8,772 bases of DNA from Gammaproteobacteria bacterium (GTDB lineage Bacteria > Pseudomonadota > Gammaproteobacteria > Pseudomonadales > Porticoccaceae): contig QNFO01000032.1 in the NCBI GenBank assembly GCA_003646355.1, forward strand, positions 1 through 8,772, read 5' to 3'. Shown here piece by piece: positions 50 through 8,772 of this stretch (positions are counted from its first letter, which is position 1; each line of letters begins with the position of its first letter). The translations under genes and the position numbers were made by a program. The notes under the pieces were generated by a model. That model had not been told where the DNA came from, searched no databases, and worked only from the letters and a program-made list of their open reading frames with translations.

Positions 50-730
50 CTAGTTGAAATATCCTTCAGAGAGAGCCTTCAGAGGCGCGTGTTGTTGAAT
101 GAGAATTCGTCCCCGTGTCGTTTCAATCCAACCTTCGTCTTCAAATTTACGCAGTTGGCGGCTAATGACTTCTCGAGCGGTACCTATTTCTGTGGCCAGG
201 TCTTCATGTGTTGTATGCACCTCCTGTTTGTTGGCACAAAGTTGAAGCAAGTGACGGGCAAGCCGTACGTCGAGCCTTTCCATGGCAACCTCACTGACCA
301 GCTCGATCAAACAGCCGATACGTTTGGACAGGTCATCCATAAGTAGTAAGTGTATGAGCGGAGATTTACTCATTGCCTGACGCAATGAAATGACGGGCAC
401 AGAAAGTGCGCGACAATAGGTTTCTGTTTTGGCACTGGCCGGATAATACCGAGAGCCAAACATGCAATTGGTTGAAAGTATGCACGTCTCCCCCGGCCTG
501 ATTCTGTACAGCAATATTTCTCGCCCATTGCTGGCCGTGGAGAAAACTTTGACTTGCCCTTCGAGAAGAAACAGGTAGTTCTCGCAACTATCGCCCGGTG
601 AAAAAAGGACTGTGTCGCTTGGCGCTTCAATAACGTTGGTGTGAGCCAAAAAAGACTGCTCTAGCACTTTTATTTCTGCAGGAGATGCTGTTGGGAATAA
701 AGTTTCTAGGTCTTTCATCGCGTTGCTCAC
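50..730 (-). CDS. Crp/Fnr-family transcriptional regulator
   Basis: A predicted cytoplasmic DNA-binding regulator of 226 aa, the usual length for the family. Residues about 20-125 form the cyclic-nucleotide-binding-type beta-barrel, including the LFLLEGQVKVF strand pair and an RPGETCIL turn. A dimerisation helix follows (about 125-155), then a winged helix-turn-helix (about 172-215). The recognition helix contains E187-x-x-S190-R191, the ExxSR pattern that FNR-like proteins use to read DNA. The pocket does not show the Arg that CRP uses to hold cAMP phosphate (the stretch reads YPASAKTE), and the N-terminus lacks FNR-type Fe-S cysteines, so the effector is unknown. C83 and C89 sit close together in the barrel and could be redox-active (inference). 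The listed start is GTG with a poor ribosome site. An in-frame ATG at 718 preceded by GTGAG is an equally good start (222 aa). It is divergent from the hydrolase-PilZ gene. Confidence 0.9.
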   Translation of the reverse strand: MSNAMKDLETLFPTASPAEIKVLEQSFLAHTNVIEAPSDTVLFSPGDSCENYLFLLEGQVKVFSTASNGREILLYRIRPGETCILSTNCMFGSRYYPASAKTETYCRALSVPVISLRQAMSKSPLIHLLLMDDLSKRIGCLIELVSEVAMERLDVRLARHLLQLCANKQEVHTTHEDLATEIGTAREVISRQLRKFEDEGWIETTRGRILIQQHAPLKALSEGYFN

Positions 731-952: not shown

Positions 953-2209
953 ATGGATTTTCAGAATAAACGTATCGTGATTTGCTGTGATGGCACCTGG
1001 AATACCCCCGAAGAACCTACCAATGTTGTGAAGCTACTGCGTAGTATTAAACCCTACAGCGATGACGGCAAGCATCAAGTGGTTTTTTATGATCAGGGGG
1101 TGGGAACCTATAATCCTGTTGATAAGTTTATCGGCGGTGCCTTTGGTAAGGGCGTCGAGCAAAATGTGCTCGACGCTTATCGCTTTATTGTCCACAACTA
1201 TCAAGCGGGTGACGAGCTTTACTGCTTTGGTTTTAGTCGAGGTGCTTACACGGCCAGGGCACTGGGTGGCATGTTGCACAGTATTGGGCTGCTACCTAAG
1301 GACGAGCTACAAAACTTACCGGCCGCGTATAAGCATTACCGAACACCTCCCCATAAAAGAAAGGCTCAAACGTATGAGCAAATGCTTAAGCCTGAAATCC
1401 AATTAATGGCGGTGTGGGATACGGTGGGTGCTCTTGGTGCCCCGACGCCAATTTTTGGGCGCTTCACGAAACCACTGGTTGGGTTTTTTAATACCCACCT
1501 AAGCCCAGATATTAAGCATGCCTATCAGGCACTTGCCATTGATGAAAAGCGTGGTGTGTTCCAGCCCGCTTTGTGGACAGGTGAAATTAATAGCGACCAA
1601 ACAGTGGAGCAGACCTGGTTTTCCGGTGTGCATTCTGATGTGGGTGGCGGCTATGAGCAGGCGACTTTATCGAATGTCGCCTTGAGCTGGATGGTCAATA
1701 AATCGAGAGCCCTGGGGCTGGATTTTTCTAATGAATATCTTTCTTACCAAGGCGAAATGCATGCCGATGATTTGCACGATTCATACAGCTGGGCTTACGG
1801 GGCGATGGAGAAGCTAGGTGTTGAGCAAGGTGTTCGACAATTACAGGGTGATCTCGATAATCCGCCCATCAATATTTCAATCCATGAATCCGTTATACAG
1901 CGAATGGATCAGATAGAGAGTTACCAACCCATTAATTTTATCAACACCTTACCTATTTCACGCACTGATGAGCGTCGTCATTTTACGCGTTTGAGCACGA
2001 CTCAATTACAGGGTCTTGTGCAAATAGACTCAGAGGCTATCGGCTGTGAAATCCTGGACTATTCCCCCTTGGGTGGCGTCAAAATAAACTGTGATCAGGG
2101 CTTAAAAGAGTCCGATACTATCGCGATTAGTTCAGCAAGGTTCGCAAAAACGCTAGCGACCTGTGTCTGGCAACAAGGCAATACCTACGGACTACATTTT
2201 GCCGCGTGA
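953..2209 (+). CDS. DUF2235 alpha/beta hydrolase with C-terminal PilZ domain
   Basis: A 418-aa protein without signal peptide or membrane segment, so probably cytoplasmic. Residues about 6-290 match the DUF2235 family, which includes Tle1-type phospholipases. It opens with IVICCDGTWNTP, has the nucleophile elbow G93-F-S95-R-G97 (GFSRGAYTAR), then WDTVGALG (D156) and GVHSDVGGGY (H227, D229). S95, D156 and H227 are the likely catalytic residues by family analogy. Residues about 338-418 look like a PilZ domain: an RxxxR motif at R342-R346 (RHFTR) and DxSxxG at D369-G374 (DYSPLGG), followed by beta-strands ending in a CVWQQGNTYGLHF segment typical of the PilZ C-terminus. Both c-di-GMP-contacting motifs are intact, which suggests a hydrolase controlled by c-di-GMP. 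The substrate is unknown. No VgrG, PAAR or immunity gene is nearby, so a type VI effector role is not supported. The gene stands alone, convergent with a c-di-GMP phosphodiesterase operon. Confidence 0.9.
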   Translation: MDFQNKRIVICCDGTWNTPEEPTNVVKLLRSIKPYSDDGKHQVVFYDQGVGTYNPVDKFIGGAFGKGVEQNVLDAYRFIVHNYQAGDELYCFGFSRGAYTARALGGMLHSIGLLPKDELQNLPAAYKHYRTPPHKRKAQTYEQMLKPEIQLMAVWDTVGALGAPTPIFGRFTKPLVGFFNTHLSPDIKHAYQALAIDEKRGVFQPALWTGEINSDQTVEQTWFSGVHSDVGGGYEQATLSNVALSWMVNKSRALGLDFSNEYLSYQGEMHADDLHDSYSWAYGAMEKLGVEQGVRQLQGDLDNPPINISIHESVIQRMDQIESYQPINFINTLPISRTDERRHFTRLSTTQLQGLVQIDSEAIGCEILDYSPLGGVKINCDQGLKESDTIAISSARFAKTLATCVWQQGNTYGLHFAA

Positions 2210-2436: not shown

Positions 2437-2670
2437 TTAAGTCAGTAAGAGGGTATTTACTCTTTTGTTCAAAGTCGCTGCGTCCCGGCTGGTTTCTGCT
2501 GCGGTGCCGATATGTGGGCTTAAAGCTTTGAGTAAATCGCGATCTGAAATTACACGGGCAAGTATATCGGCATCGAGAACAAGTAAGTGATGAAAATTGG
2601 TGTTGTTGAAAATATCGTTAACCACATGAAGCGAATCGTCCATTTCAACACTGACTACTACTGTCGACAT
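2437..2670 (-). CDS. Short CBS-domain protein, probably truncated
   Basis: A 77-aa ORF containing most of one CBS domain. VSVEMDDSLHVVNDIF leads into HHLLVLDAD and ISDRDLLKALSP, the hallmark strand-helix pattern. CBS domains usually work in pairs that bind adenosine nucleotides. Here the frame closes after LNKRV, where related two-CBS proteins usually run on into a second repeat, and no second repeat is visible in any frame. The reading frame also stays open upstream of the ATG with a CBS-like lead-in (FKSIEQLMST), as if the original start had been lost; no ATG or GTG was found there. A weak ribosome site and 23 bp spacing place it last in the operon, after the phosphodiesterase. It could be a functional single-CBS protein or a decaying remnant. 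It is clearly CBS-related, but its function is uncertain. Confidence 0.6.
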   Translation of the reverse strand: MSTVVVSVEMDDSLHVVNDIFNNTNFHHLLVLDADILARVISDRDLLKALSPHIGTAAETSRDAATLNKRVNTLLLT

Positions 2671-2693: not shown

Positions 2694-4394
2694 TTACTCG
2701 GTGATGGCTTGGTAGGCTGTAGCCCAGTTGATAAAGTCCTCCACTGCCAGGGGTTTAGAAATAAAATAACCCTGGGCGATGTCGCAGCCATGTAGTTTGA
2801 GTTTGTCCCACTCCTCCTGGGTCTCTACACCCTCGGCAACGGTGGTCATATTAAATTCGCTGGCTAAAACAGTGCAAATTCTGACGATAGAATTGGCCTC
2901 GGCATCGTTGACCATACGACTGACAAAATGACGGTCAATTTTTAATTCAGAAAAAGGGGATTCGTAGAGTTTCTTTAATGAAGAGTCGCCAGTGCCAAAA
3001 TCGTCGATAGACAGTGAAAAGCCTTTCATTCGCAGACGATTAAAAATATCGAGAGCCATTGAAGTATCCGTAAGGATCGTGGACTCGGTTAATTCAAGAA
3101 TAAAGTATTCGGGCTCAAAATCGTGTTCCTTTATAAGTACGTCGAGTTGTTCTGGAAAGTGCAAATCGACAATATTTTGGGCAGAAATATTGATAGAAAT
3201 GGTAATGTTATAGCCTGCTGCCTTAACCTTTTTATAGGCCTTAATGGATTCAGCTATAACCACCTGGGTTAGCTCAGTCATTAATCCATTCTGTTCCGCC
3301 AGGGTGATTATTTGGTCAGGAAAAACTAGCCCCCTGACAGGGCTCAGCCAACGAACGAGGGCTTCGACGCCACAGATCGAGCCATCAGAAAATTGTATTT
3401 GGGGTTGTAAGTGCACCATAAACTCATTTTGTTTAAGGCCCTGTTTTAATTCTTCTACGGTGATGACTGGCCTGCTGAGACTGCCTTGTGAACCGTCTTC
3501 TGTTGGGCTAGCCTTGGGAGGTCCTGTTGGGTCAGCTAGTACGGTATTAATGTGACGATATATATGTGCATGGTTAACCCTTTTGATAACGTCAATAAAT
3601 ATTTCAGTGTCAACGGGCTTGTTTAAAGTGTCTGCCACATTGAGTTGTCTGGATTCAGCAAATTGTCGTGCCGACTGTAAAACCCGCTCATCAAAACCAC
3701 TGACTAGAATAAAGGTTGGGTTGATGTTTTTCTCAGCGAGATCCCTCATGACTTCAATGCCATCTTTATCCGGCATATTAAGATCTAGGACGATAATGTC
3801 TCGACTGCTGATTGGAGCTTGCAGGAATTGGAGGCTAGAGCTGTAGGCCGTTGCTTTTAAGCCGGCTTCTTCGCTCATTGCGAGTAAGAGCTCAACGTAA
3901 ACTGGATCATCATCAACGAGGTGAACATGGCAAAAGGGCTGCATTGTCAATGCCCCTGCTTTTATTACAGCTTGATGGATGTTATCTAAATTATTTCGAG
4001 TGTAGGGTTCTATCCGCTTGTCTGTGCCATTGATGTGCTCAATGAACCAGTCTCTAAGAAAGAGGACAAAGTCTTTAGGTGCTTGCTCATGCTGTTGTAC
4101 GAGCATGATTTGTTTTTTTAGCTGCTTAATCAATTGCTGATGAATGTCGCAATGCTTGTCAAAAAATGGATAGGGTGAGGCGGCCATAAGAGCCTCTTCG
4201 CGCTTGAAATGTACTTCGGTGTAGTTGAGAAGATTGGCCATCATGCAGTAGAGGTCTGTGGCGTCTACTTTAGTTTTGCTTACCCAATAAGCATCTTGAA
4301 AAACATTAAATAATACTTTGTGATCATCATCTATATCATCTGCGCCCGTGCTTAAATTGTCTGTCCAGAATATAGGAGAGTCATCCATGGGCAT
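2694..4394 (-). CDS. Hemerythrin-REC-EAL c-di-GMP phosphodiesterase response regulator
   Basis: A 566-aa soluble protein with three domains. Residues 1-135 are a bacteriohemerythrin with all di-iron ligands expected for the family: H25, H62, E66, H81, H85, H120 and D125, so it should bind O2 or NO. Residues about 156-275 are a receiver with acidic pair D161/D162, phospho-acceptor D204 (VLDLNMPD), S232 and K259. Residues about 312-556 are an EAL domain with E344 (EAL), N402, E434 (ELTES), D464-D465 (DDFGTG), K485, E521 (EGVET) and Q541. All catalytic positions are present, so it should hydrolyse c-di-GMP to pGpG. The loop reads DDFGTGD where Y commonly follows GTG. The start overlaps the kinase stop by 14 nt; an in-frame ATG at 4388, better spaced from GCGAGA, would shorten the overlap to 8 nt. 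The overlap and the receiver make the kinase its likely phosphodonor. Confidence 0.95.
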   Translation of the reverse strand: MPMDDSPIFWTDNLSTGADDIDDDHKVLFNVFQDAYWVSKTKVDATDLYCMMANLLNYTEVHFKREEALMAASPYPFFDKHCDIHQQLIKQLKKQIMLVQQHEQAPKDFVLFLRDWFIEHINGTDKRIEPYTRNNLDNIHQAVIKAGALTMQPFCHVHLVDDDPVYVELLLAMSEEAGLKATAYSSSLQFLQAPISSRDIIVLDLNMPDKDGIEVMRDLAEKNINPTFILVSGFDERVLQSARQFAESRQLNVADTLNKPVDTEIFIDVIKRVNHAHIYRHINTVLADPTGPPKASPTEDGSQGSLSRPVITVEELKQGLKQNEFMVHLQPQIQFSDGSICGVEALVRWLSPVRGLVFPDQIITLAEQNGLMTELTQVVIAESIKAYKKVKAAGYNITISINISAQNIVDLHFPEQLDVLIKEHDFEPEYFILELTESTILTDTSMALDIFNRLRMKGFSLSIDDFGTGDSSLKKLYESPFSELKIDRHFVSRMVNDAEANSIVRICTVLASEFNMTTVAEGVETQEEWDKLKLHGCDIAQGYFISKPLAVEDFINWATAYQAITE

Positions 4395-7300
4395 TCTCGC
4401 TATTGATGCAAACTCGATCCAGCAACAGGCGCAGGCGTTTGAGTAGTTCGTTGGGGGAGTAGGGTTTATTTATTATATTATTCGCTAGTTCCAAATTGAT
4501 ATTGTCAGCAGGGTGGTCGAAAACAAAGCCGCTAGTCAATTGGATTTTTATAGCTGGATAACGAGACTGAATTTCACGTGCCATGGCAAATCCATCCATG
4601 TTGGGCATGACGACATCACTTAAAACAAGAGCAATATTCTGTTCCGCAGCCAATGCTGCAAGCGCTTGTAGACCGTCGCTGGCTGTTAGGACAGTGTAAC
4701 CGGCATCTTGTAGTATTTCCCTTGCCAGCTCTTTTAACGCGGGTTCATCATCCACGACAAGAATCTTTTCGGTGCCATTTAATATTATGTTGCCATCAAG
4801 TAAAGATGTTGGTGCTTCATTATCCTGGGACTGATAGCGAGGAAAGTAGAGGTCGAACTGAGTGCCTTTGCCAAGTTCAGATGAAACGCTGATGGCTCCT
4901 CCTGAGCGTTCCATAAACCCATAAACCTGGCTTAATCCCAGCCCGTTACCTTCTGTCCCTTTAGTGCTGTAAAAGGGATCGAAGATTTTTTCTAGAAGGG
5001 AGTCTTCAATCCCGCAGCCAGTATCACAAACAGAAAGCTTGATGTAATCGTTTTCAGCGAGATTAAGTGCTACTGCTTTGTCTTTAGAGAGGTGGGTGTT
5101 TTCTGTACATAGGGTTAATGATCCACCCTCGGGCATTGCGTATTTGGCATTAATGGCAAGGTTGAGAATGGCGTCCTCACAATCGCCATTATCTATCCAG
5201 GCCAGCCAGCGTTCATCACTAAATTCACATTTTAGCTGTATTACAGCAGTCAGGGATTTGGCGAGAGTATCTCTTATATTATCGAGGGTTTGATTAATAA
5301 CAACAGGGCTAGAGTCTGTGTTTTCTGGGCGGGAAAAATTCAACATCTTTTTAGTCAGTTGTTCACCGCGATAGGCAGCATGGATGATTTCATCAATAAA
5401 TTTATCTGCCCCTTCAACTGTACTGTATCGCCGTTTTAGCAAGCCGGAGTAGCCGATAATTACCCCCAGCATATTGTTGTAGTCGTGAGCAATGCCGCCG
5501 ACTATTTGGCTTAGGGCCTGCATTTTTTGATGGCGAACAAGGTGTTGCTCGGCACGCTTTCTTGCGCTGGCATTGGTAGCCTCTGCAACCAAATAGGCAA
5601 CATTACCTCGCTCATCAAATACTGGATGGATGCTGTAATCGACCCATAACAAACCTTCTGAGGTATTAATTTCCAGTTCTCTTTCGACCTTTTCAGCTCT
5701 CGATGCGCGAAGACAGTCGCTCTTTACCTGCTCTTGTTCGTGACTATTGTGTGAAAACCAGGGGCTCTCCCAGAGTTTCAAGCCAACAACATCGGCTAAT
5801 AAAGTGCCTGTGATTTCCAGTGGGGGTTTATTGGCGAAGATGATTGTGCCGTCGGGTTGTAAGGTGACAAGCATGCTTAACATCCCGTCGAGGAGTTGCT
5901 GCAAGCGTTGTTGATTGTTTTTTTCTAAGTCTTCGAGCCGGCGTTGCTCGGTGATATCCATAAACAACGCAGAGACGCCAATTATACTTCCCTCCTCGTT
6001 AATTAGCGGGGTGCTGTACCACTCGCAGATAATGGTGCGGCCATCTCCTGTTACGCTTGTGACGATGTCACGTCGACTAGTGCGATTTTTTATCAACTTC
6101 ACCCATGCACTATCGGGCAGGGTGTTCATTGCATTGAATCTTAAAACCCTGGTGGAATGTTTGCCGATAATATCCTCTTTTTTTAATGAAAATATTCTTT
6201 CACCGGTAGGGTTTATATCGATAATTTCAAAATTGATATTCCACTCAATCATTCCCAGCGGTGATTCCTTCCAATGCAAGGAGGAACGATAGAGTGTGTC
6301 TCGTAGCTCGGCACGCAAACTATATTGTTCACTGACATCATTGAAGATTAATACCATGCCGTGAATGTCGCCGTCATCATTTTTAATAGCGGCGGCTGAA
6401 TCGGCAATATGGTGCTCAGTGCCATCTTTGGCAATTAGTGTCGTGTGATTACTGAGATAAACCGTTTCCCCAGTGGCGATAACTTTCTCGACGGGATTGG
6501 CTATAACTTGGCGGGTTGAAGCGTCAATGATAGAAAATACATTGTTTATTAGCTCGCCCTGGCAATCCTTTAATAGGTAGCCTGTCAGCTGTTCTGCCAC
6601 AGGGTTCATCCGTGTGATGTTGCCCTTGGTGTCGGTGGTGATTACAGCATCACCAATACTATGGAGTGTGATGGAAAGATTATTCTCGCTTTTCTCTAAA
6701 CGCTGGTGCTCGCTCTTAACGGTTTCTGCCATTGTATTAAAGGCGTGCCCCAGGTCGCCAATCTCATCATTGCCCCTTAGCATTATTGGCGTGTAATCGC
6801 CTGAGCTCATAAAATTATTTGCTGATTCGCTGACCTGTTTTATGCGCTGGCTAATCCAGTAATTAAAATAGATTGCTGTTAAGAGACCGATCAATGCCAG
6901 TATTATTAGCATCGGTATAATTAGCTGGTTGATCAAGACTTGGCTTTCGGTGGCGAAGCCATTCATGTCGTAGCGAATAATCATCGCGCCAATTTTATCT
7001 GCTTTTAAAGAACTGCTTGATAGTCGCCCTAGCATGATGGGTGTTATGCCAAAGAGGGAGGCCCCATCTTCTGATAGCCAGATTAAATTTTTAGGGTTTG
7101 ATTTTATTGTCTCAAGGTACTGCTTAACATTGGGCTTAAGGCTTGGATCGACAGTGTAATTATCGATGACTTTAAGATCATCAATATTCATGTTGATGAG
7201 CTCTCTGCGCGTGCCAGCTATTATTTTGGCCTTGTTATCAATCAGTATTGCACTCTTTTTGGTTCTGTCAGCAGCTAATAATGATATGGCTTTTTGTATT

Positions 7301-7536
7301 TGCCTGGCTTCATTGTTTGCCGCAAGAAATCCAATGTTTTCCTGTAAGCCAATAAGTTGAGACTGGATACCCTGCTTTTTATCGTCGATATACTGGCTTT
7401 TAATATGTGCTGACAATATAAAAAACAGTAAAATACTCTCTAGTACAAAAATTAACACGATAAGCGCCGTCATTTTTGTACTGATGGACTTCCCTGTCGT
7501 GCGTTTTTCTATAATAGGCGTATCAGTTTTTTTCAT
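4381..7536 (-). CDS. Membrane hybrid sensor histidine kinase (sensor-HAMP-3xPAS-HK-REC)
   Basis: A 1051-aa inner-membrane kinase. TM1 spans about 23-44 and TM2 about 204-226, enclosing a periplasmic sensor of about 160 aa that looks Cache-like. A HAMP linker (about 227-280, NDEIGDLGHAFNTMAETV) is followed by three PAS domains (about 284-405, 412-530, 542-660). The kinase core has H684 in GGIAHDYNNML, the H-box style of CckA-like (HPK4) kinases. Its ATPase domain has N796, D838-x-G840-x-G842, FDPFYSTK and NGLGL. The C-terminal receiver (about 923-1040) has D929/D930, acceptor D974 (VLSDVVMP) and K1024. All catalytic residues are present. There is no HPt domain, so phosphate may pass directly from H684 to the receiver of the downstream phosphodiesterase, or D974 may compete as a sink. 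Its ATG lies inside the end of the lipoprotein gene (14-nt overlap), implying coupled translation and a shared ligand signal. Confidence 0.95.
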   Translation of the reverse strand: MKKTDTPIIEKRTTGKSISTKMTALIVLIFVLESILLFFILSAHIKSQYIDDKKQGIQSQLIGLQENIGFLAANNEARQIQKAISLLAADRTKKSAILIDNKAKIIAGTRRELINMNIDDLKVIDNYTVDPSLKPNVKQYLETIKSNPKNLIWLSEDGASLFGITPIMLGRLSSSSLKADKIGAMIIRYDMNGFATESQVLINQLIIPMLIILALIGLLTAIYFNYWISQRIKQVSESANNFMSSGDYTPIMLRGNDEIGDLGHAFNTMAETVKSEHQRLEKSENNLSITLHSIGDAVITTDTKGNITRMNPVAEQLTGYLLKDCQGELINNVFSIIDASTRQVIANPVEKVIATGETVYLSNHTTLIAKDGTEHHIADSAAAIKNDDGDIHGMVLIFNDVSEQYSLRAELRDTLYRSSLHWKESPLGMIEWNINFEIIDINPTGERIFSLKKEDIIGKHSTRVLRFNAMNTLPDSAWVKLIKNRTSRRDIVTSVTGDGRTIICEWYSTPLINEEGSIIGVSALFMDITEQRRLEDLEKNNQQRLQQLLDGMLSMLVTLQPDGTIIFANKPPLEITGTLLADVVGLKLWESPWFSHNSHEQEQVKSDCLRASRAEKVERELEINTSEGLLWVDYSIHPVFDERGNVAYLVAEATNASARKRAEQHLVRHQKMQALSQIVGGIAHDYNNMLGVIIGYSGLLKRRYSTVEGADKFIDEIIHAAYRGEQLTKKMLNFSRPENTDSSPVVINQTLDNIRDTLAKSLTAVIQLKCEFSDERWLAWIDNGDCEDAILNLAINAKYAMPEGGSLTLCTENTHLSKDKAVALNLAENDYIKLSVCDTGCGIEDSLLEKIFDPFYSTKGTEGNGLGLSQVYGFMERSGGAISVSSELGKGTQFDLYFPRYQSQDNEAPTSLLDGNIILNGTEKILVVDDEPALKELAREILQDAGYTVLTASDGLQALAALAAEQNIALVLSDVVMPNMDGFAMAREIQSRYPAIKIQLTSGFVFDHPADNINLELANNIINKPYSPNELLKRLRLLLDRVCINSENAHG

Positions 7537-8530
7537 AGTATAAAGTTGTGTCCCCTAGTAGTGCAGATGGCTCGACACTGCTTTTAATTAACGCTTGCTT
7601 AAGCATCACTTCTGATATTTTGTCGATTGTCTGTGCTAGCTCAGGCTGTGGCTGGCCCTTCAATAGCCCCTGGTTTTCAGCTCGGCCGGGAATTTTTAAA
7701 CCCGCATAGGCCGCTAGTGTGTCTTCGACCCCTAGCCCCATGCGTCGGCCCAATATTTCGGCGGTTTGATGAGGCTCTGTGCCAATTAGACTGATGCTAT
7801 CAAACCAGGCGTTAATCAGTTCCTGAACGACTTTGGGGTGGCGCTCCAAATAGGCTGTTCTAACGACTAGTACATCAATAATTTCATTGGGTATTTGACT
7901 ACTGTCGAAGATCACATGGCCACCCGCCATCAATAATTTTCCTAGCAGAGGCTCAAATGTCACCACCGCAGCCACTTTACGCTGCAGAAACGCTTTTTCC
8001 TGCTGGTCGATATCCAGTGGTACGATTTCAATCGCAGCTCTCGCTAAATTAGCGCTATCTAGCGCCCGGCTGATGACATAGGCTCCCAGAGCGTTGCCCT
8101 CCACCCCAATTTTTTTCCCTTTTAGATCACCAAGGCTATCAATTGACGCTTGGGCCACTATGGCATCAGCGCCATGGGAGGTATCCATTATCAGCACGAC
8201 TTGCAGTGCTTCTCCCGTATCAGACAGCTGTAGCACTTCATCGAGGGTCAGGGCGGCTGCGTCAATTAAGTCATTGCGAAAGGCTTGCATAACCTGCGTT
8301 GAGGATGACAGTTCGACCAATTGAACGCGTTCAGTATCTAGCTTGCCAGTGTGTCGGGCCAGGTAAAGGGGTTCATAGCCAGGCCAAACATTCGTCCCCA
8401 GACGCAGGGTAGGTGGGCTGCTCTCGGTACAACTGGCAACTAAGCAGCAAATTAAAAGCACCAAGGGCAAGCCATGGCTCAAATATATGCTGTTATTTTG
8501 ACGGCGCTTAATCATCAATGATCTGTTCAT
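7523..8530 (-). CDS. NitT/TauT-type substrate-binding lipoprotein, likely sensor partner
   Basis: A 335-aa periplasmic binding protein of the ABC nitrate/sulfonate/taurine/pyrimidine-precursor (SsuA, NMT1/THI5-like) type. The N-terminus has a basic start, a hydrophobic core (LPLVLLICCL) and the lipobox VASC with C34 as the lipid-anchored residue. The mature part begins with LRLGTNVWPGYEPLYLAR, and includes DLKGKKIGVE (about 136-144) and a VAAVVTFEPLL segment (about 187-196), typical of the family. The bound ligand cannot be read from sequence. No permease or ATPase gene is seen in the window. The gene overlaps the sensor kinase by 14 nt, which favours a role in presenting ligand to the kinase rather than import (inference). 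The Shine-Dalgarno upstream of the ATG is weak. The gap to the upstream hemerythrin gene is 44 bp. Confidence 0.9.
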   Translation of the reverse strand: MNRSLMIKRRQNNSIYLSHGLPLVLLICCLVASCTESSPPTLRLGTNVWPGYEPLYLARHTGKLDTERVQLVELSSSTQVMQAFRNDLIDAAALTLDEVLQLSDTGEALQVVLIMDTSHGADAIVAQASIDSLGDLKGKKIGVEGNALGAYVISRALDSANLARAAIEIVPLDIDQQEKAFLQRKVAAVVTFEPLLGKLLMAGGHVIFDSSQIPNEIIDVLVVRTAYLERHPKVVQELINAWFDSISLIGTEPHQTAEILGRRMGLGVEDTLAAYAGLKIPGRAENQGLLKGQPQPELAQTIDKISEVMLKQALIKSSVEPSALLGDTTLYYEKN

Positions 8531-8541
8531 TGGAGGCTCTG

Positions 8542-8621
8542 ATATTTAAGGTGCTGGCTTTATTTTTATTAGCGTTATGCCTTGATGCCTTGCTGTTGAA
8601 AATACTCGCCATATTTAAGGT
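8542..8621. repeat. 11-bp direct repeat ATATTTAAGGT
   Basis: ATATTTAAGGT occurs at 8542-8552, in the gap before the lipoprotein gene, and again at 8611-8621, inside the end of the hemerythrin gene. The copies are 69 bp apart and are identical over 11 bases, but the flanks differ. It may be chance in AT-rich sequence or a trace of a small duplication. Confidence 0.25.
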
Positions 8622-8772
8622 CCTCGCCGAGGATGTGCCCTTTTAGCCAGCCGGTGAGGAATACGATGCCTTCTATCATATTGACTTTCTCACCCTCTTC
8701 AATACTTTTAATGACATCTGCGACCTGGCCTAGTAATGCGGTATGTGCTCGTTTCTGACTGGTAAGTTCAGG
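8575..8772 (-). CDS. Bacteriohemerythrin-like protein, 3' part only
   Basis: The last 65 codons of a minus-strand gene cut by the right edge of the window; translation runs from 8772 to a TAA at 8575-8577. The fragment reads as the second half of a bacteriohemerythrin: a PELTSQKRAHTALL helix, an IEEGEK linker, then FLTGWLKGHILGEDLKYGEY. The final ligands are present as H46 and D51 of the fragment (HILGED, the H-x4-D spacing) and one middle His (H10). The position four residues before H10, normally a second His ligand, is Gln (QKRAH). It is probably a single-domain protein of ordinary length, but the start is not visible. It lies 44 bp upstream of the lipoprotein gene on the same strand, so it is likely in the same operon and may supply oxygen or NO sensing, or di-iron chemistry, to the circuit. 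Confidence 0.8.
   Translation of the reverse strand, partial: PELTSQKRAHTALLGQVADVIKSIEEGEKVNMIEGIVFLTGWLKGHILGEDLKYGEYFQQQGIKA

Follow-up and report, generated by a model that had tools for sequence, protein, structure and literature searches.

The window (the whole 8,772-nucleotide stretch of DNA analysed) carries at 953..2209 on the forward strand a gene for a 418-amino-acid protein that joins a DUF2235/Tle1-like α/β-hydrolase to a C-terminal PilZ domain—an assignment based on the open reading frame, a PF09994 match, the predicted fold and fused homologues. The gene lies between a divergent Crp-type regulator (50-730, reverse strand) and a CBS protein (2437-2670, reverse strand); the latter is very short, with 77 residues and a single CBS match. 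After the CBS gene comes a hemerythrin-receiver-EAL protein (2694-4394, reverse strand). Patterns read off its sequence include what we take to be the usual EAL motifs, and it is apparently a c-di-GMP phosphodiesterase with a hemerythrin-type domain. A large PAS hybrid histidine kinase and, next to it, an NMT1-type substrate-binding protein occupy 4381-8530 (reverse strand); together with the EAL protein, they seem to form one signalling operon. A partial ORF running off the window's end (8575-8772, reverse strand) matches hemerythrin weakly (E 0.06). In a related locus (L001, 9486-11090, reverse strand), the gene adjoining the fusion encodes an MCP that has a hemerythrin domain, the window's hemerythrin belonging to a different kind of protein.

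Domain architecture of the fusion protein

The catalytic domain covers residues 6-249 (968..1699), where PF09994, the T6SS Tle1-like catalytic domain formerly called DUF2235, matched with an E-value of 8.2e-84 over profile positions 1-286 of 287. An earlier, sequence-only reading of this DNA had pointed to a GFSRG nucleophile elbow with candidate Asp and His residues, all of which could be located: Ser95 (1235..1237) is the nucleophile within GFSRG, Asp156 (1418..1420) the candidate triad acid within WDTVG and His227 (1631..1633) the candidate base within GVHSD. They align with Ser240, Asp280 and His347, respectively, which form the triad of TleB according to the relevant passages of PMC12421835; by our own count, the chain numbering of the structure used runs 36 ahead of that article's. 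In structure comparison, the T6SS enzymes Tle1 and TleB are among the catalytic part's best matches.

Residues 250-337 (1700..1963) form a helical or linker part, delimited by the ends of PilZ-less matches and by model confidence (pLDDT 61-92 in blocks of ten residues). Many PilZ-less DUF2235 matches stop near query position 333-356 in the genomes of the class and family of Rheinheimera lutimaris (G003); because many such proteins match to about residue 335, the PilZ domain follows a complete enzyme. The relative placement of hydrolase and PilZ domain is uncertain in the full-length model (pTM 0.77).

The PilZ domain itself, residues 338-418 (1964..2206), was identified indirectly. The earlier reading had proposed a PF07238 search of the C-terminal region as a check; the profile gave no match at E up to 1 against the window protein, either whole or as the C-terminal piece alone. 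That piece matched nothing in Pfam or NCBIfam, and in the whole protein Pfam leaves the C-terminus uncovered at E up to 1. Since the protein's own sequence thus yields no PilZ match in either collection, the assignment was made through homologues and the fold. Of the 115 sequences aligned, 62 match PF07238 with E-values of 0.01 or less, the best being 1.3e-8, and homologue P0016, 77% identical in the alignment, scored 27.1 bits against a cut-off of 22.5. Precomputed annotation, counted by eye, places PF07238 and PF09994 together in 36 of the best 120 homologues listed. A search scored on residues 325-418 alone recovered only 21 close relatives among 58 candidates.

When the full-length model was compared with known structures, most of the 50 matches shown fell on the hydrolase, with 8u0i and 9b8v falling on the PilZ part, and a domain-only model was therefore built; this model and its structural matches bear out the predicted six-stranded PilZ barrel. 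Both signature motifs occur at the positions claimed for them from sequence. RxxxR (R342-R346; 1976..1990, with arginine codons at 1976-1978 and 1988-1990) stands before strand 1, and DxSxxG (D369-x-S371-x-x-G374; 2057..2074) lies between strands 2 and 3. The motif pair is by pattern alone only suggestive, because shuffling the last 88 residues 20000 times produced RxxxR...[DN]xSxxG in 47 cases. A looser pattern in the last 110 residues was present in 13 of 15 fused proteins, 2 of 67 other DUF2235 ORFs and 32 of 1238 other ORFs of at least 200 aa. Homologue profile matches, two predicted structures and structure comparison thus back the originally proposed DUF2235/Tle1-like hydrolase with a C-terminal PilZ domain, and together the sequence and predicted structures show a complete α/β-hydrolase and, C-terminal to it, a PilZ fold that carries both motifs for c-di-GMP.

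Conservation of the active site and the c-di-GMP motifs

The aligned set of 115 sequences comprised the window protein and 114 homologues and was drawn from the best 120 homologues listed. Five of these were left out as short: P0043 and P0102, which are pieces of 270 aa, and P0113, P0118 and P0119 (359-366 aa), which cover 78-79% of the query and apparently have no PilZ domain. Ser95, Asp156 and His227 are invariant in all 115 sequences, and the triad is likewise invariant among the DUF2235 ORFs taken from genome loci, 14 of them fused and 67 not. R342, R346 and G375 are also present in 115 of 115, next to D or N at position 369 in 110, S371 in 109 and G374 in 99. Because the set consists of best-scoring hits from which apparently PilZ-less ones were dropped, the presence of a PilZ domain was selected for; the invariance of both ligand-contacting arginines was not. 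The mean majority frequency is 0.72 in the catalytic part, 0.50 in the linker and 0.48 in the PilZ domain, where R342, R346 and G375 are the only invariant residues among 81 positions. An RxxxR motif retained throughout such a divergent domain is as expected for a working binding site, and the joint conservation of the triad and the c-di-GMP-contacting arginines is as expected if c-di-GMP switches the enzyme. Pairwise identity in one domain tracks that in the other (r 0.75 over 6555 pairs), which shows that they descended jointly and says nothing of function.

The second motif is looser. The strict [DN]xSxxG form is kept in 92 of 115 sequences; since the other 23 depart from it, some homologues may bind c-di-GMP differently or not at all. 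These departures, together with a window sequence that falls under the Pfam threshold, would suit a PilZ domain that no longer binds a ligand and persists as a mere structural appendage. We regard this as very doubtful for the window protein, however, which keeps the canonical residues of both motifs and belongs to a set in which RxxxR and G375 never vary despite the divergence around them.

Distribution, ancestry and genomic setting

A scan of one genome per species gave 553 confirmed loci, and among the best 80 that were kept, the fusion occurs in 14; the other 66 loci (67 ORFs) have no C-terminal PilZ profile match. The class of G003 yielded matches at E up to 1e-20 in 52 of 369 sampled genomes, two of which, G003 being one, match to the PilZ end (at most four candidates per genome were scored). 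Within the family of G003, 45 of 295 genomes match at E up to 1e-60, 18 of them at full length, G003 included. Fusion records outside Gammaproteobacteria come mostly from MAGs, for which binning errors are possible; with this proviso, full-length matches were found in 2 of 194 genomes from the class of G010 (locus L022, titled Desulfuromonadaceae), G010 included, and in 2 of 196 from the class of G008 (L014, titled Nitrospirales), G008 included, and both Pfam domains occur in P0110, titled Gemmatimonadales. Each of ten fusion-bearing genomes has one copy of the fusion.

A quick tree of 99 catalytic domains (32 fused, 17 of them hand-picked from A2, and 67 not fused) placed the fused sequences together except for three PilZ-less ones inside the group (L012, L013 and L015). 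These three have short tails that lack a PilZ profile match and represent possible domain losses; the constrained likelihood favours their placement outside. Several independent fusions were considered and set aside, the likelihood being better by 11.7 (p-AU 0.71) when the 32 fused sequences were held together. The data are most simply read as one old fusion event, which is favoured, not proved.

With ORFs picked mechanically, the one that follows the fusion gene is encoded on the opposite strand in 13 of the 15 loci (window counted), or in 12 without the doubtful L022 ORF (74 aa, overlapping the fusion gene), as for a self-contained sensor-enzyme; an upstream gap of at least 80 bases is seen in 14 of 15. 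No conserved neighbourhood was found across the 15 loci. The widest shared cluster besides the fusion spans four (L003, L004, L006 and L014); in three of these loci its member lies two genes downstream of the fusion, and the L004 member matches the ABC transporter ATPase, which is a very common family. Of the window's ORFs, the fusion alone belongs to a cluster common to at least two of the 15 loci. The proximity of the likely c-di-GMP phosphodiesterase to the fusion gene is suggestive, but the relatives compared do not share it.

We also scanned 20 neighbour proteins from 13 loci; the 14 relatives have 28 immediate neighbours, of which 19 were covered, along with one second neighbour. They include two chemotaxis receptors, a methyltransferase, an acyltransferase, a phospholipase/carboxylesterase-type hydrolase, an acyl-CoA dehydrogenase, an amylase, a fumarase-type lyase, ABC transporter parts and regulators; neither these proteins nor the 15 loci offer a hint as to substrate. 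The hydrolase (Abhydrolase_2; L005, 6883-7836, forward strand) lies just upstream of the fusion gene in a Marinobacter MAG. The methyltransferase adjoins the fusion gene in L002 (7691-8878, reverse strand) and matches part of the PADLOC model mad2 (E 7.8e-25), which may reflect a resemblance among methyltransferases in general.

The structural matches of the PilZ domain include the MapZ-CheR1 complexes 5y4r and 5xly, and MapZ acts by binding a partner, a methyltransferase. The PilZ domain could likewise bind c-di-GMP yet serve to place the enzyme, through a partner protein or membrane recruitment, with catalysis unchanged. We hold such a role to be rather unlikely: the domain already sits in cis on a complete enzyme, and neither the 15 loci nor the 20 neighbour proteins show a conserved neighbour that could be the partner.

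The kinship with Tle1 and TleB raises the question of a secreted T6SS effector in which the C-terminal domain would serve as a structural module. VipB, the T6SS sheath family, occurs in seven of ten fusion-bearing genomes. In G009 the fusion gene has a VgrG about 5 kb away and, within roughly 5-13 kb, a protein kinase and a T6SS cluster as well (L123, 7876-13120, reverse strand, and 13522 onward, forward strand). However, an MCP gene and one for an FAD-dependent protein separate the fusion gene from the VgrG group in G009, VipB was not found in the other three genomes (some of the ten being MAGs or drafts), and none of the 20 neighbour proteins matches a T6SS component family, although 2 of them have no Pfam match and an unnamed immunity gene might be present. 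The seven other window ORFs scanned gave no VgrG, PAAR or immunity Pfam match. A c-di-GMP sensor would, moreover, be sensible only in the cytosol, and we consider secretion as an effector very improbable.

Pairing a cyclic dinucleotide with a lipase is also the logic of CBASS, in which the phospholipase CapV is directly controlled as a cGAMP receptor (relevant passages of PMC11800159), and a phage-defence effector switched by a cyclic nucleotide might be envisaged for the window protein. This appears scarcely credible: the fusion protein has no PADLOC match at E up to 0.01, and neither the scanned ORFs of the window nor the 20 neighbour proteins gave a CD-NTase match. The domains that make c-di-GMP (GGDEF) are plentiful elsewhere in the fusion-bearing genomes, occurring in all ten tested with 6 to 80 each.

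Proposed c-di-GMP control and relation to known systems

On balance, we think it fairly probable that the window protein is a serine esterase or lipase of the DUF2235 (Tle1-like) family, with a predicted Ser95-Asp156-His227 triad, and that it is subject to c-di-GMP—a cytosolic enzyme whose activity or membrane access would be set by the messenger on its own PilZ domain. The cytosolic location is proposed from its N-terminus. c-di-GMP would bind at R342/R346 and D369-G374, and judging by the motifs and the modelled fold, binding by the PilZ domain is likely. Binding would then reposition the domain so as to open (or close) the active-site entrance, and control of the attached enzyme in cis seems reasonably probable. 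A gating role is favoured because the C-terminal part of TleB covers its catalytic pocket (relevant passages of PMC12421835); by analogy, the PilZ domain may gate the active site here. That c-di-GMP would activate rather than inhibit is a guess.

The substrate would probably be a phospholipid or another long-chain ester, drawn from the cell's own inner leaflet or stores. Members of the Tle1 family hydrolyse phospholipids (PLA1/PLA2; relevant passages of PMC9860674), and a phospholipid in particular is a plausible but somewhat doubtful candidate. It is only tentatively that we suggest one lineage to have wired its c-di-GMP pool into lipid hydrolysis, a single chain sensing the messenger and cutting the cell's own phospholipids or stored esters. 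If so, the motile-to-sessile decision would remodel lipids without transcription or partner proteins. Enzyme control of this kind would tie lipid or ester turnover to c-di-GMP signalling and provide a testable intracellular role for the large non-T6SS group of DUF2235 proteins, and the small two-domain protein offers a simple, direct test of allostery.

To our knowledge, few enzymes are controlled directly by c-di-GMP through a PilZ domain of their own chain; the best-known example is cellulose synthase. The architecture had been thought undescribed, and indeed we found no account of a PilZ domain with a DUF2235/Tle1 hydrolase in the portions of the open-access literature consulted; PMC3482391 and PMC8612006 mention both domains, and their relevant passages do not describe a fusion. 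Automatic annotation already records both domains on many homologues. What is new is thus the combination, each part being of a known kind and PilZ-enzyme fusions as such being known.

The closest relatives in function and form help to place it. Tle1/TleB phospholipases (PF09994; 6sjl, 6ski, 4o5p, 9j3f) are T6SS effectors with large extra modules, whereas here the C-terminus is a PilZ domain and a Pfam scan of the window's ORFs found no T6SS gene. The PilZ-less bacterial DUF2235 proteins, mostly of about 340-420 aa, share both the enzyme and its triad with the fusion; 67 ORFs of this type, all without a C-terminal PilZ profile match, stand beside the 15 fused ones (window included). The cellulose synthase BcsA also carries a PilZ domain (9b8v, 4p00, 4hg6), but is a glycosyltransferase in a membrane complex, the window enzyme being a soluble hydrolase. 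CapV is patatin-like, responds to cGAMP and has no PilZ domain. Finally, the N-acyl amino acid synthases Nas343 and Nas354, for which c-di-GMP control is only proposed (relevant passages of PMC4897644), resemble the window protein in joining an enzyme of acyl chemistry to a C-terminal PilZ domain, and differ from it in that the enzyme is an acyltransferase and not an α/β-hydrolase.
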